A program made the position numbers and the translations under genes. A stretch of DNA of 30,274 bases from a virus: IMG/VR virus record IMGVR_UViG_3300008012_000105, positions 1-30,274 of that record; one strand, given 5' to 3'. This document shows positions 1 through 15,462 of this stretch, in pieces. The first letter of the stretch is position 1. Every line of letters starts with the position of its first letter. Under the pieces are notes generated by a model. It had not been told where the DNA came from, made no database searches, and saw only the letters and a list, made by a program, of their open reading frames with translations.

Positions 1-47
1 GTAATAACACGTTCTCCTGTTTGGAGCACAACAATAGATGTAGCCAT
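1..47 (-). CDS. 5' end of an Sm-like (LSm-fold) protein, cut by the window edge
   Basis: Only the first 15 codons are present, beginning ATG at 47 and running off the left edge. The visible peptide MATSIVVLQTGERVI has the opening pattern of the two other Sm-like proteins in this window: a short hydrophobic strand, then S/T-G-E, then V/L-I. The ORF follows the hsp20 terminator, and no clear Shine-Dalgarno is visible; AT-rich sequence lies directly upstream. Family assignment rests on one short motif and is therefore tentative. Confidence 0.45.
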   Translation of the reverse strand, partial: MATSIVVLQTGERVI

Positions 48-82
48 AGTTTATACGAAATGGATAATAGTATGATAACACA

Positions 83-125
83 GAAAAAGAGGGGTGTCAA
101 CTGGATTTGGCCAGTTACCCCTCTG
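83..125 (-). terminator. Intrinsic terminator after hsp20
   Basis: On the minus strand there is an outer 8-bp perfect stem (88-95 with 117-124) and an inner 6-bp perfect stem (99-104 with 111-116). They are separated by a small bulge and closed by a 6-nt loop, and a run of five U follows (84-88). It lies about 30 bp after the hsp20 stop. Confidence 0.85.
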
Positions 126-156
126 TCTGCGCCGACGATATTTGGGTCGCAGTTAT

Positions 157-2629: not shown

Positions 2630-2816
2630 CGACTTCTCCAGCAAATTCAAATTCTTCGATATCACTAGCAGGAACTTCATATTCACCAGCAACCAAGTAC
2701 CAATGATGACCAGCTCTTTCACCAAGATACTTCATTTGATCTTCGGGAAAGCTGTTCTCACGCATTGCTGCCTGAATCTTAAGGTGAATAAGTTCTTCTT
2801 GGGTTGGTACTTTCAT
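2610..2816 (-). CDS. Hypothetical acidic protein, 68 residues
   Basis: The product begins MKVPTQEELIHLKIQAAMRE, has a central HHWYLVAGEYEVPA strand-like segment and ends in a very acidic tail (FEFAGEVDEEDHT). The ATG overlaps the stop of the Sm-like gene upstream (TAATG). No family is recognised; position and coupling make it a real gene of the inserted block between 62 and 44. Confidence 0.7.
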   Translation of the reverse strand: MKVPTQEELIHLKIQAAMRENSFPEDQMKYLGERAGHHWYLVAGEYEVPASDIEEFEFAGEVDEEDHT

Positions 2817-3100
2817 TAGAGAACAAGTTGCTTTTTAGGAGTAATGAGAGTAGAGAAGATACCTTCATATTGCTCCGCAATATTAGGATTTGGTTCTACA
2901 ATATAGACTGTATAGTCCCGTGGAACAGTGAATTCAATATCCTCTTTGGATAGAGGAGACCATGGAGCAAATCCCAATTGTCCTTGACCTTGAGGAACTG
3001 CTACGAGAGCATTCCCAATAGTAATTTCAGTATCAGTCTCGTTAATGAGATCGCAAATTACGTCCTCGCCAGAACGAAAGCGCACAAGTTTAGTGTTCAT
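2816..3100 (-). CDS. Sm-like (LSm-fold) protein
   Basis: This 94-residue protein opens with LVRFRSGEDVICDLI, followed by a second strand (TEITIGNALVAV). That is the layout of the Sm1 motif: strand, S/T-G-E, V-I, then a hydrophobic 'nA' turn. An Sm-like protein of putative cyanophage origin has been solved structurally (PDB 3BY7, as I recall), and this looks like the same kind of protein. Such proteins form rings and often bind RNA; the role in cyanophages is unknown. AAGGAAA precedes the ATG, which overlaps the oxygenase stop by 11 bp. Family call is from pattern only. Confidence 0.62.
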   Translation of the reverse strand: MNTKLVRFRSGEDVICDLINETDTEITIGNALVAVPQGQGQLGFAPWSPLSKEDIEFTVPRDYTVYIVEPNPNIAEQYEGIFSTLITPKKQLVL

Positions 3101-3623
3101 TTATTTTCCTTAAGTGTTGTTTCCACGGAACAGAATACTGTCCCCTACTTCTATTGTAAAATAGAAATGCGTTAGCATGATACTGACCCATAAAAGGATC
3201 ACGACCATGTTCTGCCGTCATACCATTGTATATCATTGCGTCCCCATATGTCAAGGTAACGTAATTTTTATTTCCACTTGGATCTCTTACCCATATATCC
3301 CATGGTTCATCAGATGATAGATGAACCGTGATTGCTATTTCACTTTCCAATCTGTCTACATGTGGCTTGAGAATATTGCCATTGTAATACACCCTACCGT
3401 AGCAGTACGTAGGCAATACTTTTTCACCAAGTATCCAATTCACTTCTGGCGTCTTCGCAACCAGCAGTTCTAGGAAAGAAATGTATCCAAAGTTTTGGCG
3501 ATTGCCATCTTCGTTTACTTCAACATACTTTTCACAGTAGTCAATATATTCTTTCCCTAAATCCTGTGCTTCCTGTGAATCTAGGAATCCACGAAGAACC
3601 TTATAATTATTACTTAAACTCAC
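3090..3623 (-). CDS. 2-oxoglutarate/Fe(II)-dependent oxygenase (prolyl-4-hydroxylase-like)
   Basis: The 177-residue product has the iron-binding triad pattern of the double-stranded beta-helix oxygenases: H88-x-D90 (KPHVDRLES) and a distal H139 (AEHGRDPF), between strands AITVHLSS and DAMIYNG. These enzymes hydroxylate protein side chains, nucleobases or small molecules using 2-oxoglutarate and O2; several are found in each T4-like cyanophage and their substrates are unknown. The only usable start is GTG at 3623, within the end of gene 44, with no strong ribosome site, so translation is probably coupled to gp44 at a reduced level. Confidence 0.8.
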   Translation of the reverse strand: MSLSNNYKVLRGFLDSQEAQDLGKEYIDYCEKYVEVNEDGNRQNFGYISFLELLVAKTPEVNWILGEKVLPTYCYGRVYYNGNILKPHVDRLESEIAITVHLSSDEPWDIWVRDPSGNKNYVTLTYGDAMIYNGMTAEHGRDPFMGQYHANAFLFYNRSRGQYSVPWKQHLRKINEH

Positions 3624-4557
3624 AACTCATCATAACTTCAGTAAGACATGCTAGTAGGTTGATCTCTTGGTCAGCAACAAAGGCAATCTGATACTGATAC
3701 TTTGCCAGGATCAGAACAGCCTCTGGAATAGATGCGCCTTTGAGGTTTTCATACAAGCAGTCATAGATCTTACGGATGACAATGTTAGGATCATTGTCAA
3801 TGTTTTCCACAACCCACTTACGAACCGTGGTGAACTCTTTGTTCTTCATAGACCTGACTAGATCATTGACTGATACGTCAGCAATATCAACCAAGATTGA
3901 CGTATCGATCTTACCAGTAGCAGCATGACGCTGACACTCATTGATCAGACGACGCCAGTCAGGATAGTAACGTTGAATCAACTTGACAAGAATCTTGTCC
4001 TCGCACTCAACATCATTCTCCTTCAGAATTTGCTTGAGTCGCATGAAGAACTGACCCTGCAGTTCCATCTTGGCTTCGTTCTTGACACGAAAGTCCACCA
4101 CCGTGCATCGAGAATGCAGCGGTTCAATGATCTTGTTTGGGAAGTTGCAGGTGAAGATGAAGCGACAGTTGCTGTGAAACTCCTCCACCGCCGCCCTCAA
4201 GGACAGTTGCACGTCATTGGTGGTGTTGTCTGCCTCATCAATGATAACGACCTTGTGGGGCGCTCCAGAGGCGAGAGAGACGGTGCTAGCGAACTGCTTG
4301 ACCTTGTTCCGCACCGTGTCTAGGAAACGACCCTCGTCGGACCCGTTGATGACGATATAAGACGCACCAATCTCCTCACAGACTGCCCTGGCTACAGTAG
4401 TCTTACCAACACCAGCAGTACCTGCTAGCAACAGGTTTGGAATCTCACCTTGTTCTAGGAATGCCTGAAAAGATTCTTTGATATTCTTGGGCAGAATACA
4501 GTCCTGCAGTTTGCGAGGTCGATACTCTTCGACCCAAAGGAATTTTTTATTCATCAT
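3610..4557 (-). CDS. 44: Clamp loader ATPase subunit gp44
   Basis: This 315-residue AAA+ ATPase would, as in T4, form a tetramer with one gp62 and load the gp45 clamp using ATP. Walker A GTAGVGKT spans residues 46-53, Walker B VVIIDEAD 103-110, and the trans-acting Arg motif SRC is near 149-151. The N-terminal WVEEYRP is the usual clamp-loader opening. Length matches T4 gp44 (319 residues). The start is a double ATG (4557 or 4554) inside the end of the upstream gene, giving coupled translation. Confidence 0.97.
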   Translation of the reverse strand: MMNKKFLWVEEYRPRKLQDCILPKNIKESFQAFLEQGEIPNLLLAGTAGVGKTTVARAVCEEIGASYIVINGSDEGRFLDTVRNKVKQFASTVSLASGAPHKVVIIDEADNTTNDVQLSLRAAVEEFHSNCRFIFTCNFPNKIIEPLHSRCTVVDFRVKNEAKMELQGQFFMRLKQILKENDVECEDKILVKLIQRYYPDWRRLINECQRHAATGKIDTSILVDIADVSVNDLVRSMKNKEFTTVRKWVVENIDNDPNIVIRKIYDCLYENLKGASIPEAVLILAKYQYQIAFVADQEINLLACLTEVMMSCEFK

Positions 4558-5020
4558 TAAGTAATTCTACAGGCTCAAAAATTTCATCCATAGATCCATG
4601 CTTAAACACAGACTCTGGATGATTCATAATACTACCACGAAAATACTCGCCAAGTCCATCAGACTTTACGGTATAAAACATAGTTTTTTTCTTTTGTTTA
4701 CACCACTCAATAGCAAAGAGTAGTGCAGCTCCATCAATTTTACCACTAAAGTCGGCAGTAAGAGTGACAAATTTCTTTTGTTCTGTCATCAAGAACCCAA
4801 CCTTATCTGGTCGCATCCATTCTGGCAAAGTCCACTCTTTCAACCAAGCACATCCATAGCTATCACATATTGGAGGTCGTGATAGATCGTCATAGATGCC
4901 ACAACCATGTTCAACAACGTGAGGACAAGGATGCTCTGGATATACTTTATGTTCGTTGATCTTAACTGTTAAAGTTCCGCGACAACATAAAGTACATCCA
5001 CCACATTCTTTTATGTTCAT
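4547..5020 (-). CDS. YkgJ-family cysteine-cluster protein (zinc/iron-chelating domain)
   Basis: The 157-residue protein has a dense N-terminal cysteine cluster: Cys 6, 9, 12 and 13 (CGGCTLCC), then Cys 32, 40, 52 and 57. This is the signature of the YkgJ/UPF0153 family, thought to hold zinc or an iron-sulphur centre. The rest (DKVGFLMTEQKK, GAALLFAIEWCK) is a mixed alpha/beta region. It sits exactly between the sliding clamp and clamp loader genes, with its start overlapping the gp45 stop (TGATG) and its end overlapping gene 44. A link to replication is suggested only by position. Confidence 0.8.
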   Translation of the reverse strand: MNIKECGGCTLCCRGTLTVKINEHKVYPEHPCPHVVEHGCGIYDDLSRPPICDSYGCAWLKEWTLPEWMRPDKVGFLMTEQKKFVTLTADFSGKIDGAALLFAIEWCKQKKKTMFYTVKSDGLGEYFRGSIMNHPESVFKHGSMDEIFEPVELLNDE

Positions 5021-5688
5021 CAGGGTTCAAGTGCAATATAGTATTTCAATTCAATACTCTGGTGAATCCACTCCGTAATACCTCCAGAAGCAACGTTTAC
5101 TTTGTAGTTACCTGGGTGTAGACGAAGGTTCTCAACTTTCATAGAGATGTCAAACTCACCAGTGCTCTCACCACTTACAGTTTGACTGTATACATTACCA
5201 GTATCATTCTCTTTGTCACACAGATCAAGATTGATCGTACCATCAGAAGAAGCTCGGAATGCTAGATCTGGTAAATCATACACCGCAGATGCTTTCTGAA
5301 GTGCAACTAGATCTTCGTACTTAACAACAAAACTAAAGTCAGTTCCAGGAAACTTAACGGTAGTTTCTGGTGCAGAACTCAAAGTAATCTCTGGGTTTGA
5401 GAAATAATACTTTGCTGAACGACCATTACCACGAATGGTAACATAATTTTCATTGTCAAACTGTAGAGCCGCATCATCAAAGAGAGACAATCCAGCAAGA
5501 AATTGGTTCAAATCATAGATACCAAAAGTTTGAGGGAAAGCTTCTTCGCTTTTATATTCAGCAATAGCATTCTGACCAACACTAATGGTCTTGAGTACAG
5601 TGCCTTCCCGAATAAGGATAGAACTATTGATTGTGCAAAAGTTCTTGAGAATGTCGCGAGTTTGTTTAGAAAGGATCACTGTGCTCAT
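5020..5688 (-). CDS. 45: DNA polymerase sliding clamp gp45
   Basis: At 222 residues this is close to T4 gp45 (228). It starts MSTVILSKQTRDILKNF, and the alternating strand pattern (FDNENYVTIRG, AKYYFSNPEITL, FSFVVKYEDL) is typical of the two-domain T4 clamp. gp45 forms a trimeric ring that holds the polymerase and also acts as the mobile activator of late transcription together with gp55. The start overlaps the upstream DUF3310 gene (ATGA). Confidence 0.96.
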   Translation of the reverse strand: MSTVILSKQTRDILKNFCTINSSILIREGTVLKTISVGQNAIAEYKSEEAFPQTFGIYDLNQFLAGLSLFDDAALQFDNENYVTIRGNGRSAKYYFSNPEITLSSAPETTVKFPGTDFSFVVKYEDLVALQKASAVYDLPDLAFRASSDGTINLDLCDKENDTGNVYSQTVSGESTGEFDISMKVENLRLHPGNYKVNVASGGITEWIHQSIELKYYIALEP

Positions 5689-5972
5689 TGGTTGTAGTGT
5701 TCAGTAACGTTGGTTTTGTCGGAGAAGTGAAGAAGAAGCAACCCATAGTGCAGGATCTTGATGATGTCCCGACGAGCGGTGCCCTTCTTATCATATCGAG
5801 AAGCATACTTGAGGATGTTGCTTCGGCAAAATGCCTCTGCATCACCACATGCTTCGATCAAGTCTAACGTTTGAATACTGTCATTGCCAGCAGAGTAATG
5901 TTGATTATAGGTTCCAGAAATATAGTCACGTAGCTCTTGGAGTAGAGCGTCTTCATTGTATTTGAAAGTCAT
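5685..5972 (-). CDS. DUF3310-like protein
   Basis: This 95-residue protein has the DUF3310 pattern: NQHYSAG, then LDLIEACG, then an aromatic/Cys segment AFCRSNILKYASRYDKKG, then a C-terminal helix IIKILHYGLLLLH. DUF3310 proteins are frequent in phages and are sometimes labelled nucleotide kinase by linkage; no kinase motif such as a P-loop is present here, so I do not adopt that name. It is coupled by ATGA overlaps at both ends, directly before gp45. Confidence 0.75.
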   Translation of the reverse strand: MTFKYNEDALLQELRDYISGTYNQHYSAGNDSIQTLDLIEACGDAEAFCRSNILKYASRYDKKGTARRDIIKILHYGLLLLHFSDKTNVTEHYNQ

Positions 5973-6142
5973 TTATCCCAGATAAAGTCAATGTCATTAT
6001 GATAGCATTCAATGATGGAACCGTCAATCTTTCTGACGAATAGAATGAGGTTTTGTCCACCAAGAATTTTAACGGTCTGCCCGTCTTTGAGGCGGGCAAG
6101 GTGACCTACGTATCCGTGAAATTCAATCTGCGGTTTCTTCAT
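5969..6142 (-). CDS. Hypothetical protein, 57 residues
   Basis: The product MKKPQIEFHGYVGHLARLKD... ends NDIDFIWDK and looks all-beta, with a KDGQTVKILGG turn resembling a small SH3/KOW-type barrel. I chose the ATG at 6142, giving a 20-bp overlap with the end of cobS; a longer frame to 6214 would run deep into cobS. Its stop overlaps the next start (ATGA). No specific function is recognised. Confidence 0.7.
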   Translation of the reverse strand: MKKPQIEFHGYVGHLARLKDGQTVKILGGQNLILFVRKIDGSIIECYHNDIDFIWDK

Positions 6143-7220
6143 TAGCGTTCTCATCGATTTTGTCGTAGAGTTCAATAAAGGAAGTCTTGGTCTCGTCATC
6201 GAAACGATTGACACAGACTTCGATTGCCTTCATGCGCTTTCCGAAGATCGAGAAAGCACGGACAATGTGGGTGAGGCGACGGGTAGAGATAACTTCATCA
6301 ATACCACCGTCATTAAAAGTTTTACGAATAACTTCTGCCCAGGTAGCAAGTTTAGCACAGAACTCATCATCTTGGCAACCCAGTTGTTCAGCAAGTTTCT
6401 CAAGAATCTTGGTCTCAACAGCGGGAGTAGGATACTCCTGCTCGAAGGTCAAAGCAAAACGCTCAAGGAATGCTTCGTTGAGAACATTGGTGCCAATGAA
6501 ACGACCGTCGTCACTACCCTTACCTTTGGTATTGGCTGTAGCGATAACATTGAAACCAGCAGCGGGTTGAACATAACGACCAGTCTTTTTCAGAAACACA
6601 CCTTTGCCTTCAAGAATGGATTGGAGACAAAGGATCTTGTTGGAAGCAAGGTCAACCTCATCGAGTAGCAAGATTGCACCTCGTTGGAGTGCTTCAATGA
6701 CAGGTCCGTTATGCCAAACAGTTGCCCCATCCACAAGGCGAAAGCCACCAATAAGATCGTCTTCATCAGTTTCAATAGTAATGTTGACACGAATCAGTTC
6801 ACGATCCAGTTGGGCACATGCTTGCTCCACAGAGAAAGTCTTACCGTTACCAGACAGACCAGTGATAAAAGTCGGGTAGAAGAGACCAGATTTGATGATC
6901 TTCTTTACGTCAGCAAAGTTCCCGAACGGGACATAAGTGTCGTCCTTGAGAGGAACGAGGTTCTGTTCTTCCCGCTCGGTAATAGCAACAGCAGGAACAG
7001 CCGCAGGAGCATTATAGGTCTGCTCAAGTTTCTCTTGAACAGTCAGATTCCAAGTACCACGGCGGACATAGAAATCACGCAGACGCTTTACCGCAGTCGG
7101 ATACGTAACTCCAAAGTGATCTGCAGCAGAACGAACAGCATCAGCATTGATGTCGTTACCATAAGTTTCGGACAGATAAGAGGTGAGTTGAGTAGTGGTC
7201 AGTTCAGAACGAGCGGGCAT
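6123..7220 (-). CDS. cobS: CobS-like AAA+ ATPase
   Basis: This 365-residue MoxR/CobS-type AAA+ protein carries Walker A GLSGNGKT (about residues 121-128), Walker B AILLLDEVDLAS, and a sensor region FNVIATANTKGKG. In bacteria CobS works with CobT and CobN to insert cobalt into the corrin ring of vitamin B12. cobS is a hallmark gene of T4-like cyanophages, and a role in B12 supply has been suggested but not shown. I prefer ATG at 7220 (MPARSELTTTQL) over 7292 because a promoter-like pair lies between them. The N-terminal 60 residues form a small helical region before the ATPase. It lies directly after the CobT-like gene. Confidence 0.92.
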   Translation of the reverse strand: MPARSELTTTQLTSYLSETYGNDINADAVRSAADHFGVTYPTAVKRLRDFYVRRGTWNLTVQEKLEQTYNAPAAVPAVAITEREEQNLVPLKDDTYVPFGNFADVKKIIKSGLFYPTFITGLSGNGKTFSVEQACAQLDRELIRVNITIETDEDDLIGGFRLVDGATVWHNGPVIEALQRGAILLLDEVDLASNKILCLQSILEGKGVFLKKTGRYVQPAAGFNVIATANTKGKGSDDGRFIGTNVLNEAFLERFALTFEQEYPTPAVETKILEKLAEQLGCQDDEFCAKLATWAEVIRKTFNDGGIDEVISTRRLTHIVRAFSIFGKRMKAIEVCVNRFDDETKTSFIELYDKIDENANEETAD

Positions 7221-7241
7221 TGGTTGGTTGCGTATGAAGTA

Positions 7242-7270
7242 ATTATAGGGCAAGGGAGTGGTGATACCAA
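7242..7270 (-). promoter_or_regulatory. Candidate sigma-70 promoter for cobS
   Basis: On the minus strand there is TTGGTA (7265-7270), a 17-bp spacer and a perfect TATAAT (7242-7247). The box lies in the 68-bp gap between the CobT-like stop and the preferred cobS ATG, about 21 bp before that ATG. The -35 matches four of six consensus bases. Confidence 0.55.
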
Positions 7271-7288
7271 CCCCGAGTGGACAGTCTG

Positions 7289-9424
7289 TCAAGCGACATA
7301 CTGGATAAAGGAGTTGAGCAGTTTCTTGTTTGTGGACTTGCTAGCAAGCATCTTCTTGAATGCTCGCGTGATCTCTGCTTTCTTGGCACCAGATTCAACT
7401 TCAAATTCAGTGTCAGCAGACAAAGAATTATTCGATAGTGCATAAAGAGCCGTGAATGATTTGGGATCAGGAATGATCGCAGACTTCTCTTTCTTCCACT
7501 GCTTTTGTACATCAGCATACTTCATGCTGTTGCCATAAACAGAAACAAAGTTAGACAGTTGTGATGCGCTACCGATACGAAAACCAAGAACATTTACACC
7601 AGGGTTACGATCTCGAACTTGCTGGATAAAGTTGTTAGTGGATACACCATAGTATTCGGTCTTGCTGTAAGTGATTCCTGTTTTGCGATCACGGAGAATG
7701 CAACTTTCAGTGCGACGAGGACGAATATAATACTCATCTTTGTACTCACTATAATACTTACGACCATAAGTGCTCATGCAAGATTCACCATCAGTCAAGA
7801 TACACACGTTAACTTTCTGAAGATCATTCTGCTTTTTAAATTGAGGAATGATGTAGTTCAGCATGACAACAGCTTCATTAAGAGGAGTGCCAGACAGACC
7901 GATACCAGGGGTAGTTTGATACGAGACGTATTGAATGTAAGCATACGCTTCGCGGAACAAGTTGTAGCACATCCGTTCATAATCTTTGGAGTTAGAACGA
8001 GAAGACACAAAGTTCATCAGATGGAACTGGTCCTTGTGCAAAAAGACTTTGTTCTCTTCACAACCCCTGCTCTCAAAATATTCATCATCATTGTGGTTAT
8101 CAACTACCTGACCATTTGCACGGCGGACAGGATAGTAGTCATTGGTAAACGCATAGACTTCAAAAGGGATCTGAACTTTCTTGCAGAAAGCAGTCATGTT
8201 TAAGACTTGCTTTACTGCTGCAAGAATATCATGTTGCATTGATCCAGACCAGTCAAGGAGGAACAACAAACCATGGTTCTTACCATCAGTCACTACAGTC
8301 ACTTTCTTGAAGATGTCTTCAGAATACTTATAAGTATGAAGCTTTGAAGTATCAAGAACACCAGTTTTAGATTCTCCAGAACGAGCATAAGCGTCAGCAG
8401 ACTTACGGCACTCAAACTCTTTAACAAGATAGTTTACCTCTTTCTGCGATTGCTTTCTGAACTCACGATAAGCATCTTGTACTTCTATGTATCCAGCAAA
8501 GTCCTCATTTCGCTCAAGAAATCCCTTGGAATAAGAATCAATCCAGTCATGAACTTCAGTCCAGTCAGCGACATAATCAGGAAGATTAACGCTGTCAGGA
8601 ATCTCGATGTAATTGTTGTTACCAGACCAGCGATCAGTAAATCCTTTTGCGTTCTCATCAAAAGCACGTTGGGTGCGAGACTCCTCTTCATCCATATGCT
8701 CACCACCTTCAGGTGCGCTGCTACCTTGCGGCACAGATTCTCCACCATCAGATTTTTCGTTTTCACTCTCACGACGCTGCGCCTCATCCAGCATCTCTTC
8801 ATGAGTCATAGTGTCACCATCAGAACCTTCAGGACTCTGACGTTGGGATTGCATCTCTTCAGGAGCAGGTTCCTGAACCTTTTCTTTCTTGCTGTAATTA
8901 TAAATGTCAACAGCAATTTGCAGGGCTTCCTCAAAAGTTTCGCAGTCATCGATGCGAGGAAGGAACTGACGCTCATCTGATTCAAAAGGAATCATGGCAG
9001 AAGCACCAATCTTATAGTTCAGATTGATACGATCAATCAAGCTGAAGGTGTTGAGATCTTCGTCAGCGATCTCAAAGAAATCTCTCTCATGCAGTTCTTT
9101 GTAACCACCAGCGAAAGAACGACGGAGACCAGGATACTTGCGCTTCATCAGCTTCTCAATGCGAGCATCCTCAACCACGTTGATGAAGTCCATAGGACAG
9201 TCAGCAACGTTCCTCCAATCTTCATTAGGGGTGAAGAGAGCGTGACCAACCTCATGCCCCACCAAGAGGTCATAGACGATGTTAGATGCCTTGTCCCAAT
9301 TAGGCAAGGTAAGCACACGGGTGTCCACATTGAACTGTGCTGTAGAACAGTTGCGGTGCTCAACAATCAGGTTCTCGGTTGCCAGCAAACGGGCAAGGTT
9401 ACCTTTGATTGCTTGGGTGGTCAT
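7289..9424 (-). CDS. CobT-like protein with HExxH motif and VWA domain
   Basis: 711 residues in three parts. The N-terminal 180 residues contain HEVGH (57-61) and a downstream NVVEDARIEKLMKRKYPG, a combination that looks like a zinc metallopeptidase (HExxH plus a later Glu). Residues about 185-252 are an acidic, Ser/Gly/Glu-rich linker, as in CobT proteins. The C-terminal half starts with KTGVLDTSKLHTYKY and has a von Willebrand A domain with MIDAS motif DWSGS at 391-395. AAA+ (CobS/MoxR) and VWA proteins usually act as pairs, and cobS follows directly. Cyanophage homologues have been called either peptidase or CobT. A terminator precedes the gene, so it has its own promoter (a TATACT box lies at 9449-9454). 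Confidence 0.85.
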   Translation of the reverse strand: MTTQAIKGNLARLLATENLIVEHRNCSTAQFNVDTRVLTLPNWDKASNIVYDLLVGHEVGHALFTPNEDWRNVADCPMDFINVVEDARIEKLMKRKYPGLRRSFAGGYKELHERDFFEIADEDLNTFSLIDRINLNYKIGASAMIPFESDERQFLPRIDDCETFEEALQIAVDIYNYSKKEKVQEPAPEEMQSQRQSPEGSDGDTMTHEEMLDEAQRRESENEKSDGGESVPQGSSAPEGGEHMDEEESRTQRAFDENAKGFTDRWSGNNNYIEIPDSVNLPDYVADWTEVHDWIDSYSKGFLERNEDFAGYIEVQDAYREFRKQSQKEVNYLVKEFECRKSADAYARSGESKTGVLDTSKLHTYKYSEDIFKKVTVVTDGKNHGLLFLLDWSGSMQHDILAAVKQVLNMTAFCKKVQIPFEVYAFTNDYYPVRRANGQVVDNHNDDEYFESRGCEENKVFLHKDQFHLMNFVSSRSNSKDYERMCYNLFREAYAYIQYVSYQTTPGIGLSGTPLNEAVVMLNYIIPQFKKQNDLQKVNVCILTDGESCMSTYGRKYYSEYKDEYYIRPRRTESCILRDRKTGITYSKTEYYGVSTNNFIQQVRDRNPGVNVLGFRIGSASQLSNFVSVYGNSMKYADVQKQWKKEKSAIIPDPKSFTALYALSNNSLSADTEFEVESGAKKAEITRAFKKMLASKSTNKKLLNSFIQYVA

Positions 9425-9459
9425 GGCTTCTCTTGCGTTGATGCCTATAGTATATACGC

Positions 9460-9484
9460 AAAAAGGGGAGTCCGAAGACCCCCC
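9460..9484 (-). terminator. Intrinsic terminator at the end of gene 46
   Basis: On the minus strand, GGGG-G-GTC, a TTCG loop, then GAC-T-CCCC (9465-9484, with one G-U pair) is followed by a U run (9460-9464). The stem begins within the gp46 stop codon TAG. The UUCG tetraloop is a known highly stable loop. Confidence 0.9.
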
Positions 9485-11214
9485 TATGCCGCTTCTGCAA
9501 CTGTCTCTCGGACAACAGAATAGTTTTTTACTTTCTCACATTGTAGAGTTCTATCAAACTTTCCGTCAAGATTTTCTTTGTGAGAGATCACAAACACATT
9601 AGTATCATCATCAAAATTGCGAAGGATCCATCCCAATTCACCAGTGCCATTCTGATCTAATGAGCCATCAAAGATCTCATCTAATATGAGGATGTTAGTA
9701 TCAACGCTATTCTTAAGTTTAGCAACAGCACGCCAAGTAAGCAGAAGAGCGATATCGATACGAGCTTTCTCTCCCTCGCTGAAGGATTCGTAAGAGAACG
9801 TATCCCTGTATCTTGACTTGATTGTTTCTTCAAAGTTCTCGTCCAGCGCAAAGTTGACATAGAAGTCCATGTTCTGAAGGTACTGGTTGATGAGTTTGTT
9901 CATCACGGGAAGATATCTCTTGATGATCCTGGTTTTGATTCCATTATCTTTCAAGAGTTGTGACGCTGCAAGAAGTGTGTCACGTTCTTCTTTGATCTCG
10001 GAGATCTGTTTCTTCAGTTTCAGGTATTCTTCCTGCAAGTATTTTAACTTCTCGTCTGCTTCTGAAGAATCTGATTTATTATTTCTTAATAATTCAATCT
10101 GATCCATCAGGTCTTTGACTTGCAACTGAATGCGTGTGATGGTAGAGTTTGCTATTGCAATATCAGAATTAACTTTGTTGATAAGTTTAGATGTTTCGAT
10201 ATATTTTGATTCTCTTTCTTCCTCAAGTTTAATAGCAATATCCATTTCATCAAAGCCCTTGTTTAGTTCTTTGATGGAGTCCATGATAGTGGTAATTCTA
10301 GCATCCTTCAACTCTTCTGTAATTGACTGACTACAAGTAGGACATGTAGAGTTGTGCATAAAAAACTCATGTTCTTTTTTATGCGTAGAAAACTTTTGTT
10401 GAATCTTCCCCTTTAAAGTGTTTAACTTTTTAAGTTTTGTTGGTGTATAAGAGTTGGTTTCTAAATCTTTAGAATATTTTTCACTTTCTACGTTAAGGTT
10501 GTTAACAATTTCAATAGTTTTTTCTTCTTCTGCTAACAAAGAAGCAATGGCATTCTGTTTTTCAACAACCGTCTCTTCGTTTTTCTTGCTGATGTGTTCG
10601 ATGTATTGTTTTTGCATCAGAATTTTTTCTTCAGCAAGATTAGATTGATAGTCAATCTGTTTCATCTCATCAGTAGACATCTTCACCTTGTCTTTCAACA
10701 CGGTGTTCATTACAGAGAAGATCTGAATGTCAAGAATGTCTTCAATGATGTCCCTACGTTGAGCGATAGGAAGACGCATGAAAGGAACAAAGGTACTACT
10801 TCCTAGTACCACAATCTGGGTAAATGATTTATAGTTCATCTTGAGAATGTTAGTCTCAAGTTGTTTTTGATAATCATTCGTCGTACTTGATTGATCAAGC
10901 ATCTGACCGTTCTGATATATCTCAAAGACACCAGGCTTAATACCACGAACTACTTTAAAGTCGTTCTTTGCAATATTAAACTCGATCTCAACCAGACAAT
11001 CCTTTTGATTGATGCTATTCACCAGCATCGGTTTGTTGATCTTACGGAAAGGTTTTCCAAAAAGTGAGAACGTCAGTGCATCTAGAATGGTAGACTTGCC
11101 TGCACCATTAGCACCAATAATTAAGTTTGTTTTTGAAGCAAGCAAATCAATTTCGGTGAATACGTTTCCAGTGGACAGGAAATTTTTCCAACGAAGTTTT
11201 TTAAAGACAATCAT
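9484..11214 (-). CDS. 46: Recombination exonuclease ATPase subunit gp46 (Rad50-like)
   Basis: 576 residues, close to T4 gp46 (560). The ABC/SMC-type head is split: Walker A GANGAGKST at 34-42 near the N-terminus, and signature SFSEGEKARIDIALL plus Walker B ILILDEIFDGSLD near the C-terminus. Between lies a long coiled coil with a zinc hook CPTC at 291-294. With gp47 it forms the Mre11/Rad50-type complex that resects double-strand ends for recombination-dependent replication and host DNA breakdown. Its start overlaps the DUF3110 gene (ATGA). Confidence 0.97.
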   Translation of the reverse strand: MIVFKKLRWKNFLSTGNVFTEIDLLASKTNLIIGANGAGKSTILDALTFSLFGKPFRKINKPMLVNSINQKDCLVEIEFNIAKNDFKVVRGIKPGVFEIYQNGQMLDQSSTTNDYQKQLETNILKMNYKSFTQIVVLGSSTFVPFMRLPIAQRRDIIEDILDIQIFSVMNTVLKDKVKMSTDEMKQIDYQSNLAEEKILMQKQYIEHISKKNEETVVEKQNAIASLLAEEEKTIEIVNNLNVESEKYSKDLETNSYTPTKLKKLNTLKGKIQQKFSTHKKEHEFFMHNSTCPTCSQSITEELKDARITTIMDSIKELNKGFDEMDIAIKLEEERESKYIETSKLINKVNSDIAIANSTITRIQLQVKDLMDQIELLRNNKSDSSEADEKLKYLQEEYLKLKKQISEIKEERDTLLAASQLLKDNGIKTRIIKRYLPVMNKLINQYLQNMDFYVNFALDENFEETIKSRYRDTFSYESFSEGEKARIDIALLLTWRAVAKLKNSVDTNILILDEIFDGSLDQNGTGELGWILRNFDDDTNVFVISHKENLDGKFDRTLQCEKVKNYSVVRETVAEAA

Positions 11215-11489
11215 TCTAGATCAATCGGCGGAATAATAAAATCATCAACGGTTATTATAGCATACCTATGGTTTCTTTGTTCACAGGCTGCAACAATAAG
11301 TTCTCTTTCTATTTCAACTAACTGCAGATTTGGTCCCTCTTCATCTTCTATAAGTTGTATAGCATAGCGTTCCGCATCATCTTGACACTCAAAAATAGGA
11401 ACTATTTTTTCTCCAGTATCCTTATCTATGAGAGAAAACACACCCTCTGGGTGGTCAACAAGTGTCAAGATGTACGTAGCGTCTGTCAT
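11211..11489 (-). CDS. DUF3110-like protein
   Basis: This 92-residue protein has strands at the N-terminus (YILTLVDHPEGVFSLID) followed by IFECQDDAERYAIQLIEDE and ELIVAACEQRNHRYAII. That layout matches DUF3110, a small family mostly known from cyanobacteria (a 'DDA-RYA-LLE' helix followed by 'I-EFC'). It is coupled on both sides (ATGA) and lies between the two subunits of the gp46/gp47 nuclease. The function is unknown, and the gene may have been acquired from the host. Confidence 0.72.
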   Translation of the reverse strand: MTDATYILTLVDHPEGVFSLIDKDTGEKIVPIFECQDDAERYAIQLIEDEEGPNLQLVEIERELIVAACEQRNHRYAIITVDDFIIPPIDLE

Positions 11490-12529
11490 ACCATCTCACA
11501 GCTTTCAATATATAGGTTCCTCATGAGTTTTTTGAGTGAGGTTTTGTCTACGGATATCTCCACCTCATCGATATATTCGTTCAGAAGTGTGAGGGTATCT
11601 TTCACTTCAATGTCAGCATCATCGGTTTGATCCTCACTCACAAGAGTCTCAACAACTTTGATATCATGTACACCAGCAGCATACAAAGAATCAATCATTG
11701 TTTCGAACCTGTAGTAGTCTCTCTTTTCTTCTACAACTACTTTAACAAAAGTATCTTTGTACTCGGTGTAATCAAGAACCATGTCTTTATCTACATCATT
11801 GTAGTACACCTTCTTGAAAATCTCATATGGATTCTTGACTCTAGTCAGTCTATTTGTTTTGGGTTGCCACAGATGAAATCCACGCTCATCCTTGTAATCA
11901 TTCCAGAACATCTGGTAAGGATTACCTAGGTATGTGATGTTGCCCTTGCTTGACTTGTGATGATAGTGACCAGAGAAGACTTGTTTGAAGTCCTTATAGA
12001 TAGAAGGATCATGTCCGTGCTCCATCTTAAGCCCAGGTGTTACTTCGAAACCGTCAAGTTCAAGGTGTCCCATGACAATTTGTGCATCTGTTTGTTGGAG
12101 ATGTTCCATCGTCGATGCTTCGTTCTCCCTGTTGATCCAAGGGACAAAACAAACTTTCGTACCCTCAATAGTAACAGTAGTAACCTCATCGTAGACACGA
12201 ATATTATCATAGTCACCTAGCAATAAGTCAGGAGAGTTGATGGAGTTTGTGTTCTTGTAGTACACACAGTGGTTGCCCAAGATTGTATGCACTGTGATGC
12301 CCATTTCATTCAGGCGATCAAAGTAGTGAGTACGAACACGATTCCATACATTAAAGTCAATACCTTTACGGTTGTCAAATGTGTCGCCCAGGTCGATGAT
12401 CTCTTTGATACCTTTCTTCTCTAGCGTAGGAAAGAAGACATCATCATAGAACTTTTGGAAGTAATTCCAAAATGCCAGACTACCCTTACGACCGTCTAGA
12501 TGTTGATCAGTAATCAATGCTACAGTCAT
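11486..12529 (-). CDS. 47: Recombination endonuclease subunit gp47 (Mre11-like)
   Basis: 347 residues (T4 gp47 is 339). The metallophosphoesterase motifs are in order: D8-Q-H10 (ITDQHLDG), GDTFDNR (D49), GNH (85-87), and later GHLELDG and GHYHHK. This is the nuclease partner of gp46. The start overlaps the gp55 stop (ATGA), placing recombination and late transcription in one message. Confidence 0.97.
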   Translation of the reverse strand: MTVALITDQHLDGRKGSLAFWNYFQKFYDDVFFPTLEKKGIKEIIDLGDTFDNRKGIDFNVWNRVRTHYFDRLNEMGITVHTILGNHCVYYKNTNSINSPDLLLGDYDNIRVYDEVTTVTIEGTKVCFVPWINRENEASTMEHLQQTDAQIVMGHLELDGFEVTPGLKMEHGHDPSIYKDFKQVFSGHYHHKSSKGNITYLGNPYQMFWNDYKDERGFHLWQPKTNRLTRVKNPYEIFKKVYYNDVDKDMVLDYTEYKDTFVKVVVEEKRDYYRFETMIDSLYAAGVHDIKVVETLVSEDQTDDADIEVKDTLTLLNEYIDEVEISVDKTSLKKLMRNLYIESCEMV

Positions 12530-13017
12530 CGGTTCATTCTTGTCTCAATGTTTTCTTTGATGCTACCCATGTCGGCATAAGAAGCATTCATACCAGCCAT
12601 ATCACCTTCGTATGTTTCTGTGTACATAACTTCTTGGTGACCAGATCTCTCAAGAATTTTACTCTTAATTTCTAGTTGGCGTTTTTCTTTCTGAATGCGG
12701 CGAAGGAAAGCGTAGTAGATAATTTGTGTGAAGTAGGCAAAAGGATTGGAAGACTTCTCTGGATTAAAATTGTCAATATACTGTAGGCAATTTTCAATGC
12801 CGTCACAGATCATGTCCTCTCGGAACATGTAGTTAACAAAGTTTGGTTTGTAAGACAGGTGTGTAGCAATCTTCAGGAAACATTCACCAATGTAATTTGG
12901 TACAAGCGGTTTCGATTTACCTTTCTTTTTAGCAAGCTCGACCTTACGTTTATATTCCACTATTGCTTCGAGGAACTCTTTGTTATTAACGTAGTATTCG
13001 GTCTTTGCCTTTGCCAT
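12526..13017 (-). CDS. 55: Late-transcription sigma factor gp55
   Basis: The 163-residue product (T4 gp55 is 185) has the T4-family core MFREDMICDGIENCLQYIDN, followed by NPEKSSNPFAYFTQIIYYAFLRRI, here split for length: NPFAYFTQI then YYAFLRRIQKE. This resembles sigma-70 region 2, which melts the promoter -10. gp55 directs host RNA polymerase to the phage late boxes, assisted in T4 by gp33 and gp45. It is the first gene after a strong host-type promoter, consistent with early or middle expression. Confidence 0.94.
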   Translation of the reverse strand: MAKAKTEYYVNNKEFLEAIVEYKRKVELAKKKGKSKPLVPNYIGECFLKIATHLSYKPNFVNYMFREDMICDGIENCLQYIDNFNPEKSSNPFAYFTQIIYYAFLRRIQKEKRQLEIKSKILERSGHQEVMYTETYEGDMAGMNASYADMGSIKENIETRMNR

Positions 13018-13039
13018 CTAGTTGCTATTTGCTAACAAC

Positions 13040-13068
13040 AGTATAACTCGATTCTGTAATTCTGTCAA
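13040..13068 (-). promoter_or_regulatory. Near-consensus sigma-70 promoter before gene 55
   Basis: On the minus strand: TTGACA (13063-13068), a 17-bp spacer, TATACT (13040-13045). The -35 is perfect, the -10 differs at one position and the spacing is optimal. It lies 23 bp before the gp55 ATG in the only sizeable gap (110 bp) of this region, and would drive 55, 47, the DUF3110 gene and 46. Confidence 0.85.
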
Positions 13069-13127
13069 TAGCTTGACAAAAGACCTAAAACCTAATAGAA
13101 TAACTCTGTAAGGGTTCAAGAGACATA

Positions 13128-13523
13128 CTAGCTTTTATTAAATAGAGCTTCTAATTTCTTTTTAGTTTCTTCTACAGAACCAAGGTATCCCATCTCTCTA
13201 GAGATTTCATTTGTTTTTGATTCTGGTTCATCAGAATTAATATTGTTTACATTCATCAAGTAATATACTTTGACTCTCTCATCTAATTCGGAGATAGTTA
13301 GTACCTTATCCATTTGAATAATAAACATGTCATCATAAGAAGAAGCAATCCATTCTTTTAATGAGAATCCATCAATTTGTTTTCCAGATTTTTTTGATGT
13401 CACTCTGTCAACTAGTAAAGGATTCTCCACTAATAAAGAATCCTCATCTACCATGTAACAGACTTTAGAGATTAATTCTTCTCCAGATGATAGTTTTATC
13501 GTTGCATAAAATTCGTCTTCCAT
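13128..13523 (-). CDS. Sm-like (LSm-fold) protein with extended tail
   Basis: This 131-residue protein opens with YATIKLSSGEELISKV and continues DSLLVENPLLVDRV. The strand, S-G-E, L-I, strand, 'NP' turn pattern matches the Sm-like protein at 2816-3100 and cyanophage Sm-like proteins in general. Residues from about 90 on are a charged, probably helical tail (EETKKKLEALFNKS). AAGG lies upstream of the ATG, two bases after the uvsW stop. This is the last gene before the gp55 promoter. RNA binding would be expected from the fold but is not shown. Confidence 0.65.
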   Translation of the reverse strand: MEDEFYATIKLSSGEELISKVCYMVDEDSLLVENPLLVDRVTSKKSGKQIDGFSLKEWIASSYDDMFIIQMDKVLTISELDERVKVYYLMNVNNINSDEPESKTNEISREMGYLGSVEETKKKLEALFNKS

Positions 13524-13525
13524 TA

Positions 13526-14986
13526 TTACCTTAAATCTACTTTTACTGTTTCATACTTAAAATTTTCTTCCTGGTAGATTGCAATCCTTTCGTAAAGGTG
13601 TTTAAGTGTATAGTTTTCTCGACGACCAGAGATGTCGTCTGCAATATCATAGAGAGTAGCGATTTCTTTTCCTTCTCCCTTCCTCAATACACGACCTATG
13701 CTCTGTAGGTTACGCACTCTTGACTTGGAAGGTGATGCGAAGATGATGTTGTGCAGTCTCCTGATATTAATACCAGTGCTGAATGTTCCATAAGAAGCAA
13801 TGATCACTGCATTGTCTTCTTTTTCTGTAATGAGTCTGACAGCTTCACGATCTTCAATGTCAGTGCCGCCGTGTACGAAAAATACTTTTCTTTCATTACC
13901 AACACTATTATTTATGAGTTCAAAAAGTGGTTCACCGTGCTTCTCCACATAGTTGAATAGCACCAGTGTATTACCACCGATGTCATTAACAAGATTCTTA
14001 ATTAGATTGTTTCTTTTTTGATGAGTTACAATGTATTCCATTTCAGAATGGAAGTCTGCAAAATGCTGATACTCATGTTTACACACCAGAACTTTGATCC
14101 TGAAGTTTGACAGATAACCCTTCTTGATAAGATCGTCAGTCTTTGTGACTTTTTCACAAGCACCAAAGAGACCCTCTAGGACCCACTTGTGTGTCTTACT
14201 ACCATCTAGTGTACCTGTAAACCCAAAACGATACTTGGCATTATGAAGCTTGGTCATGATTCCTGTGAGGGACTTCGACTTAAATAAGTGTGCCTCATCT
14301 CCGATAACACAATCAATGTCATCAAAGTATCTCTTTGGGAATTTGTAGATGGACTGCCATGTTGAGATAACAACTGGTTTGTCAGTATTCTTATCTTTGC
14401 CCGAATATATGGTATGACAGTGTTCGTCGGCGGACCATCCATAGTCTTTAAAATCCTTGATCATCTGCTCCACTAGTGAAGTAGTAGGAACTACGAGCAG
14501 AATCTTTTTACCTGTTGCAACATAGTATCTTACGATACTGTAGATCATGAGTGACTTACCAGATCCTGTTGGTGACAAGAACAAACCTCTGTTATTTTTG
14601 AGGGCTTGATAAACTGTGTTGTACTGATAGTCTCTTGGTTTATATTTAGAGATCTTATCCATGAAGACCTTAACACCACCAGGAGATACTAACTGGTTTG
14701 GTTCTTCTACGTCACCATACCAATCATTACTTTCATACTTAATCTGATATCTACGTTCCTTACACCACTCTTTAAGGTGTGGCAGCAGACCATTGTACAG
14801 TTCTCCTGTAGCAGGAGAGTACAAGTGAATCATCCCATCCCAGTATCTAAAGCGTGGTTGTCTTTTTAAAAACTTTGCTTCTGGCAGCTCAAAAGAAAAA
14901 TAGTCTGCTAACTCTCTATGTACGTGTGGTTCTGAATTAACTGTTAGATAAACTTCATTCTTCTTCTTGACGACGATGTTAGACAT
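13526..14986 (-). CDS. uvsW: DNA/RNA helicase UvsW
   Basis: 486 residues of a superfamily 2 helicase. Walker A PTGSGKS lies near residues 139-145, followed by DEAH (VIGDEAHLFKS), the SAT-like FTGTLDG, and motif VI SIGRVLRKGEG. T4 UvsW unwinds branched DNA and R-loops and shifts replication from origin to recombination-dependent mode. I use the ATG at 14986, overlapping the uvsY stop (TGATG), rather than the adjacent GTG. It is co-transcribed with uvsY. Confidence 0.95.
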   Translation of the reverse strand: MSNIVVKKKNEVYLTVNSEPHVHRELADYFSFELPEAKFLKRQPRFRYWDGMIHLYSPATGELYNGLLPHLKEWCKERRYQIKYESNDWYGDVEEPNQLVSPGGVKVFMDKISKYKPRDYQYNTVYQALKNNRGLFLSPTGSGKSLMIYSIVRYYVATGKKILLVVPTTSLVEQMIKDFKDYGWSADEHCHTIYSGKDKNTDKPVVISTWQSIYKFPKRYFDDIDCVIGDEAHLFKSKSLTGIMTKLHNAKYRFGFTGTLDGSKTHKWVLEGLFGACEKVTKTDDLIKKGYLSNFRIKVLVCKHEYQHFADFHSEMEYIVTHQKRNNLIKNLVNDIGGNTLVLFNYVEKHGEPLFELINNSVGNERKVFFVHGGTDIEDREAVRLITEKEDNAVIIASYGTFSTGINIRRLHNIIFASPSKSRVRNLQSIGRVLRKGEGKEIATLYDIADDISGRRENYTLKHLYERIAIYQEENFKYETVKVDLR

Positions 14987-15462
14987 CACGCACTCCCGTT
15001 AATAAATTTTTCCCATTCAATAGCACTCTTGATAGCAAAACCTCGGTTAGAGATCTGGCGCATTACTTGGTCTAGGTAGTACAACATTTGGTCAATGTAT
15101 TTGACTTTGGCTTCTAGGTTGATAATTTCGTCATCTGATTCCAGATAGATTTTCATCTTTTCTGAAGTCTTGATACTTGCCCCAAACGGTTTTTCGGCGT
15201 ATACTCTTGCGTCAGCTTCGCCACCGTAATATTCTCGTTTATCTTTTACAAGTCTGCGAACCTCAAACTCTAAAGAAGTTTTAATTTGTGAGAGGTCTGT
15301 GTAATGGTTTAAGTATTTATTGTGCTGGAAAGGGATCTCTAATGCGAGCTTTGCGAGATCCTCTGTGTATTCCTTGTTTTTAAATTGGAAATCAATTTGT
15401 GTATCTTGTGCCCACTCTTCCTTAATTTTCTGGAAGCGATTATGTAGTTGATCAAATTTCAT
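14986..15462 (-). CDS. uvsY: Recombination mediator UvsY
   Basis: 158 residues (T4 UvsY 137). The diagnostic C-terminal stretch SNRGFAIKSAIEWEKFINGSA corresponds to SRGFAIK...FEAG in T4; cited here as SNRGFAIK and WEKFINGSA. The DKREYYGGEADARVYAEK segment also matches. UvsY loads the UvsX recombinase onto gp32-covered single-stranded DNA. It overlaps its neighbours by ATGA and TGATG on either side. Confidence 0.9.
   Translation of the reverse strand: MKFDQLHNRFQKIKEEWAQDTQIDFQFKNKEYTEDLAKLALEIPFQHNKYLNHYTDLSQIKTSLEFEVRRLVKDKREYYGGEADARVYAEKPFGASIKTSEKMKIYLESDDEIINLEAKVKYIDQMLYYLDQVMRQISNRGFAIKSAIEWEKFINGSA

Follow-up and report, generated by a model that had tools for sequence, protein, structure and literature searches.

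LSm-fold paralogues linked to the replication genes of a T4-like cyanophage, and a candidate clamp-binding tail on one of them

Background

What do Sm-like proteins do in a T4-like cyanophage, where copies of them stand beside the replication genes? The structure of a phage Sm-like protein has been available since 2008 and no job is known for these proteins. Literature searches for functional studies of cyanophage Sm-like proteins, methylamine utilization, DUF6561 and 3BY7 returned none.

The stretch analysed here, referred to as the window, is a virus record of 30,274 bases from a marine T4-like cyanophage, and its nearest annotated genome is that of Synechococcus phage S-CAM3. All window genes discussed lie on the minus strand (Table 1). 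An earlier note on this DNA had claimed two, probably three, Sm-like proteins. The three open reading frames exist and encode homologous LSm-fold proteins, here called p471, p527 and p431, and the neighbours named for them were also correct, i.e. after uvsW, between gp44 and gp62, and after hsp20, respectively.

The LSm fold of these proteins is not new, since they have been annotated already; the UniProt name of p471 from S-CAM3 is 'Sm-like domain-containing protein'. What is new here is the anatomy: the linkage of the paralogues to replication genes, and the tail of p471. The literature found describes neither the paralogue set, nor the gene linkage, nor this tail.

Table 1. Positions of the LSm paralogues and associated features in the window
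Feature	Position	Strand	Description	Basis
p431	1..47	minus	LSm paralogue, first 15 codons; gene cut by the window edge	PHROG_431
Promoter ahead of p431	72..100	minus	sigma70-type, TTGACA-17-TATCAT, TG before the -10	11/12 consensus, pattern match only
p527	2816..3100	minus	LSm paralogue, 94 aa	PHROG_527, 3by7 clade
gp44	3610..4557	minus	clamp loader, upstream neighbour of p527	
gp55	12526..13017	minus	late sigma factor, C-terminus ..MGSIKENIETRMNR without the T4 clamp-binding motif	
Promoter between p471 and gp55	13040..13068	minus	sigma70-type, TTGACA-17-TATACT	pattern match
p471	13128..13523	minus	LSm paralogue, 131 aa	PHROG_471, Pfam Sm_like, T4-GC 139
p471 C-terminal tail	13128..13193	minus	MGYLGSVEETKKKLEALFNKS, holds the clamp-motif-like LEALF	conservation in relatives
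uvsW	13526..14989	minus	helicase, immediately upstream of p471	

Protein families and fold

Structure models cover p471 and p431, p527 was assigned by sequence, and a fourth paralogue, p483, was assigned by profile. p471 matches PHROG_471 (E=8.3e-42) and passes the cut-off of Pfam Sm_like PF16243 with 41.7 bits against 29.4 (E=1.4e-10); this Pfam model was matched at E<=1 by all 27 p471 members scanned. The label 'methylamine utilization', the only functional label present among p471 relatives, was discarded; nothing found supports it. p527 matches PHROG_527 (E=4.6e-30) and PDB entry 3by7, the latter at E=1.1e-7 as a single sequence and at 5.7e-14 as a profile. No match of p527 to PF16243 was found, and DUF6561 was matched weakly and below the cut-off (E=0.024).

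The start codon of p431 is at 47-45, 15 codons before the window end. In six near-identical contig loci (e.g. L049 and L068) the first 120 window bases are unchanged and p431 is complete with 132 aa (13054-13452 in L049); the p431 homologue matches PHROG_431. In p431 proteins close to that of the window, the short element A-[DE]-T-G-[FMV]-V-P is retained after an Ala/Glu low-complexity stretch (e.g. residues 117-124 in L049). This element, possibly another partner-binding tail, is missing in more distant p431 proteins.

The fourth paralogue, p483 (PHROG_483/DUF6561, 84 aa), begins in relatives before the 3' end of p431 is reached and uses another frame; its position is just beyond the window edge, outside the window. 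In S-CAM3 the full 84-aa frame (L003:31934-32188, NC_031906 159933-160187) starts within p431, although only the last 42 aa are annotated in the record.

Profiles of PHROG_471, 431, 483 and 527 match each other's members, so the relation among the four families is homology and not chance. Alignment of family pairs by hhalign gave E-values of 1e-6 to 4e-4 in five of the six pairs, all but p471/p483, with modest probabilities and shallow alignments; the family relation rests on the cross-family HMM matches, the tree and the models rather than on hhalign. Four groups were obtained in the tree, with 3by7 placed within p527 and a weakly supported p431 group (42/0).

AlphaFold2 gave both p471 (mean pLDDT 80.6) and p431 (mean pLDDT 78.9) the five-stranded, strongly bent barrel of solved LSm structures. 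The best PDB match for both is 3by7, with a TM-score of 0.80-0.89 by target, and eukaryotic Sm/Lsm chains come next; p527 joins the same fold through its sequence match to 3by7. Matches in the structure search extend to other large phages, e.g. Atu_ph07, phiRSL1 and BcepSauron. Homology and predicted fold are thus directly supported. Neither Pfam LSM (PF01423) nor Hfq (PF17209) was matched at E<=1 among 74 members of the four families.

Gene order, overlaps and distribution

The paralogues sit tightly against replication genes, in the arrangements uvsW-LSm, gp44-LSm and, with overlaps, LSm-LSm-gp43. In each of the eight genomes measured, uvsW and p471 either overlap or lie almost end to end; S-SSM7 has an extra gene inserted between the two. 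The order uvsW-p471-gp55 is kept in cyanophages, in pelagiphage HTVC008M and in Sinorhizobium phage phiM12. The annotation of P-HM1 (L132:907-2386) shows uvsW as two ORFs that overlap, so that either the gene is split or the sequencing introduced a frameshift.

In relatives p431 runs on into p483 and gp43, and the overlaps in eight genomes are 4-53 nt for p431/p483 and 1-47 nt for p483 and the DNA polymerase gp43. P-HM1 has a second p431 copy plus one inserted gene. In ACG-2014f (NC_026927) gp43 was matched in two pieces, 125226-126656 and 127184-128227, with about 530 bases between them, as though an inserted element had split the gene. gp44 and p527 are directly adjacent in S-CAM3 and Syn9, and a 2OG-type gene intervenes in the window. 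Synteny and overlaps are likewise directly supported by these comparisons.

A promoter element similar to that between p471 and gp55 is found in the same spacer of S-CAM3, S-PM2, Syn9, P-HM1 and HTVC008M. Because it is kept across cyanobacterial and SAR11 phages, the late sigma gene gp55 may have an early-type start of its own. At the other end, a hairpin with a T-run after hsp20 (AGAGGGGT...ACACCCCTCTTTTT, 72-135, minus strand) overlaps the TTGACA of the p431 promoter, and promoter and terminator appear to share bases. Between gp46 and gp47 the window encodes an extremely acidic protein of 92 aa (11211-11489, minus strand, net charge -16, pI 4.08); the same interval holds a small gene (T4-GC 142) in related cyanophages too.

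Among 11 cyanophages of this kind tested, p471, p431 and p483 occur in all and p527 in four. No LSm family member was found in T4, KVP40 or the divergent cyanophage S-TIM5. HTVC008M and phiM12 have one LSm copy each, exactly between uvsW and gp55, and both copies group with p471, that of phiM12 on a long branch. Position and grouping of these single copies suggest that p471 is probably the ancestral locus and the oldest of the paralogue set, the others being later duplications.

The C-terminal tail of p471

p471 consists of the LSm barrel (residues ~4-79), a helix (82-96), a disordered linker (~97-110) and a conserved C-terminal tail (111-131). The tail has the consensus G-Y-[LI]-G-S-V-x-[ED]-x-[KR]-K-x-L-E-x-[LI]-[FY]-[KN] and was modelled as a helix with modest confidence. 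A pattern of [LF][DE]x[LI][FY] within the last 18 residues is present in all 106 unique p471 relatives, compared with 0.33% of shuffled tails. The conservation is directly observed, with an entropy of 0.90 bits at LEALF versus 2.77 bits in the variable, low-confidence linker.

All 106 tails thus end in a hydrophobic-acidic motif, and the linker before it is disordered in the model, which is the layout of a T4-type sliding-clamp client. In T4 the clamp motif ends three proteins: gp43 (SLDFLFG), gp55 (SLDFLYE) and gp33 (TLDFLL). The motifs of gp33 and gp55 follow a linker and connect RNA polymerase with the clamp gp45; activation requires that of gp33 (PMC7892883). Cyanophage gp43 ends similarly, in SLEFLFG or TLDFLFA. 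The scan of the last 15 residues covered the 235 genes that encode 120 aa or more in eight cyanophage regions, and the strict motif was found only in p471 (six of the eight regions) and in the DNA polymerase gp43 (four of the eight). In the two regions where p471 is without the strict motif, FEKIY is found.

The two T4 tethers themselves look different in cyanophages. The clamp motif was absent from gp33 in all 11 cyanophages, and even a looser version was absent from 81 of 87 unique gp55 sequences, the six carriers being T4 and HTVC008M-type. A review sees no evident clamp binding by gp33 of S-PM2, and says that a hydrophobic C-terminal motif is retained in gp55 homologues (PMC2988020). The LSm protein of HTVC008M is without the motif and gp55 of that type carries the looser version; no clear motif was found in p471, gp55 or gp33 of phiM12. 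The reciprocity of the motif between gp55 and p471 may reflect one evolutionary event. A likeness between the tails of p471 (MGYLGSV) and gp55 (DMGSI) was too short to use.

The match of p471 to the clamp motif is post hoc and concerns a short degenerate motif, as it was noticed after about a dozen C-termini had been inspected. Conservation also extends upstream, to GYLG-S-V, and the tail may therefore be some other binding element, or a larger one.

Interpretation

The reading that we prefer is that the replication-linked LSm-fold proteins would form small rings holding mainly proteins rather than RNA. Each subunit of a p471 ring would carry a flexible tail with K-x-x-L-E-x-[LI]-[FY] at its end, so that the ring would present several of them. 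T4-type DNA polymerase, gp33 and gp55 attach to gp45 with peptides of this kind. Through its tails p471 could bind gp45 and bring the clamp to the machinery of the adjacent genes, which may be gp55-RNA polymerase, coupling late transcription to replication, or UvsW acting on forks that have stalled. p431 and p483, whose genes overlap each other and gp43, would probably make a mixed ring that assists the DNA polymerase, and p527 would be an optional copy beside the clamp loader.

We give a probability of about 0.4 to the reading in which p471 forms an LSm ring, contacts gp45 with its tails and acts in clamp-dependent late transcription or in fork repair. That p471, p431 and p483 form rings, that the clamp is bound, and that late transcription is involved at all, we infer. 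The hypothesis of a clamp-binding tail is new as far as the literature was searched.

One extension goes further, and we regard it as unlikely: the clamp tether of cyanophage late transcription would have moved from gp33 and gp55 to a separate LSm-fold ring, p471, whose tails link the clamp to gp55-RNA polymerase. If so, a new kind of co-activator would couple late genes to replication.

The same rings could hold replisome or recombination complexes together without touching the clamp, with the p471 tail binding UvsW, RNA polymerase or another partner. The tight overlaps with uvsW and gp43 are consistent with this, as is a conserved tail longer than a minimal clamp motif, and an LSm ring acting as protein adaptor has a precedent in Synechocystis Hfq, which acts by binding the pilus ATPase PilB1 at its C-terminus (PMC4390875). 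We consider this possible and somewhat unlikely, since it leaves the specific match to the clamp motif of the polymerase unexplained.

Rings of Hfq-like chaperones would instead bind phage or host RNAs. The earlier note had placed such a layer of post-transcriptional control beside RegA, with ring-forming paralogues for different RNA targets or with hetero-oligomers. Rings are indeed probable, given the pentameric rings of 3by7 and TIP60, and a p431/p483 hetero-oligomer is plausible from the overlap of the pair; the RNA part is not supported. The LSm fold itself would suit it. Of 12 Prochlorococcus strains whose sequences were available in 2008, 10 have no Hfq, MED4 among them (PMC2518516), so a phage-borne Hfq-like protein could be useful. 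Some p471 members also have PRKH or KRDH at the L5 position where Hfq has YKH.

Against this, all four families are acidic, with a median pI of 4.5 (p527), 5.1 (p471), 4.2 (p431) and 4.3 (p483), compared with 9.99 for residues 1-70 of E. coli Hfq. The L3 stretch, which contacts RNA and lines the pore in known rings, is 38-44% Asp/Glu, with loops placed by alignment and not by structure. In place of a basic pore and rim with conserved L3 and L5 contacts, acidic cores were found; in the alignment-placed L5 loop the basic residues are not conserved, and they are missing in p471 of the window. The profile searches for LSM and Hfq described above, and an Rfam scan of the window at gathering thresholds, which found no RNA element, point the same way. 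Some eukaryotic LSm subunits, in mixed rings, are acidic, and acidity alone therefore leaves room for RNA binding. With these observations together, we consider RNA chaperones very unlikely.

Least probable of all is a role in the virion or its assembly, as rings in capsid or tail. The pentamers would suit such a role, as would the position of p471, which closes the capsid/tail gene block. It is opposed by p431, p483 and p527 lying among replication genes and by the main text of a cyanophage proteomics study, where T4-GC 15 and 190 are the only cyanophage-core virion proteins given by name (PMC3037559).

With the tail and the gene neighbours of p471, the job of phage Sm-like proteins becomes open to a concrete test. 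Should p471 bind gp45, this would explain how replication and late transcription are coupled in T4-like cyanophages despite gp33 and gp55 without the T4 motif, and an LSm ring would serve as clamp adaptor instead of RNA chaperone.

Comparison with known systems

The closest known structure is 3BY7, a cyanophage-type Sm-like protein that is also the pentameric part of the designed TIP60. It is of one family with p527, and its fold is like that of the p471 and p431 models. 3BY7 is a single protein, and the phage of the window adds a paralogue set, gene linkage and the p471 tail. Pfam PF16243 (Sm_like), Pfam PF20198 (DUF6561) and PHROG_471, 431, 483 and 527 contain these proteins, as separate families without function.

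With Hfq and the Sm/LSm RNA-binding proteins the phage paralogues have the five-stranded LSm barrel in common. They differ in being acidic, in the acidic L3, in having no match to the profiles, in having no N-terminal helix in the model, and in their extra tails.

With the T4 tethers gp33 and gp55, p471 shares a linker followed by a C-terminal hydrophobic-acidic motif of the type L-[DE]-x-[LF]-[FYL]. Unlike them, p471 has no sequence relation to either protein, its motif would sit on an LSm ring, and its binding to the clamp is proposed from the tail.
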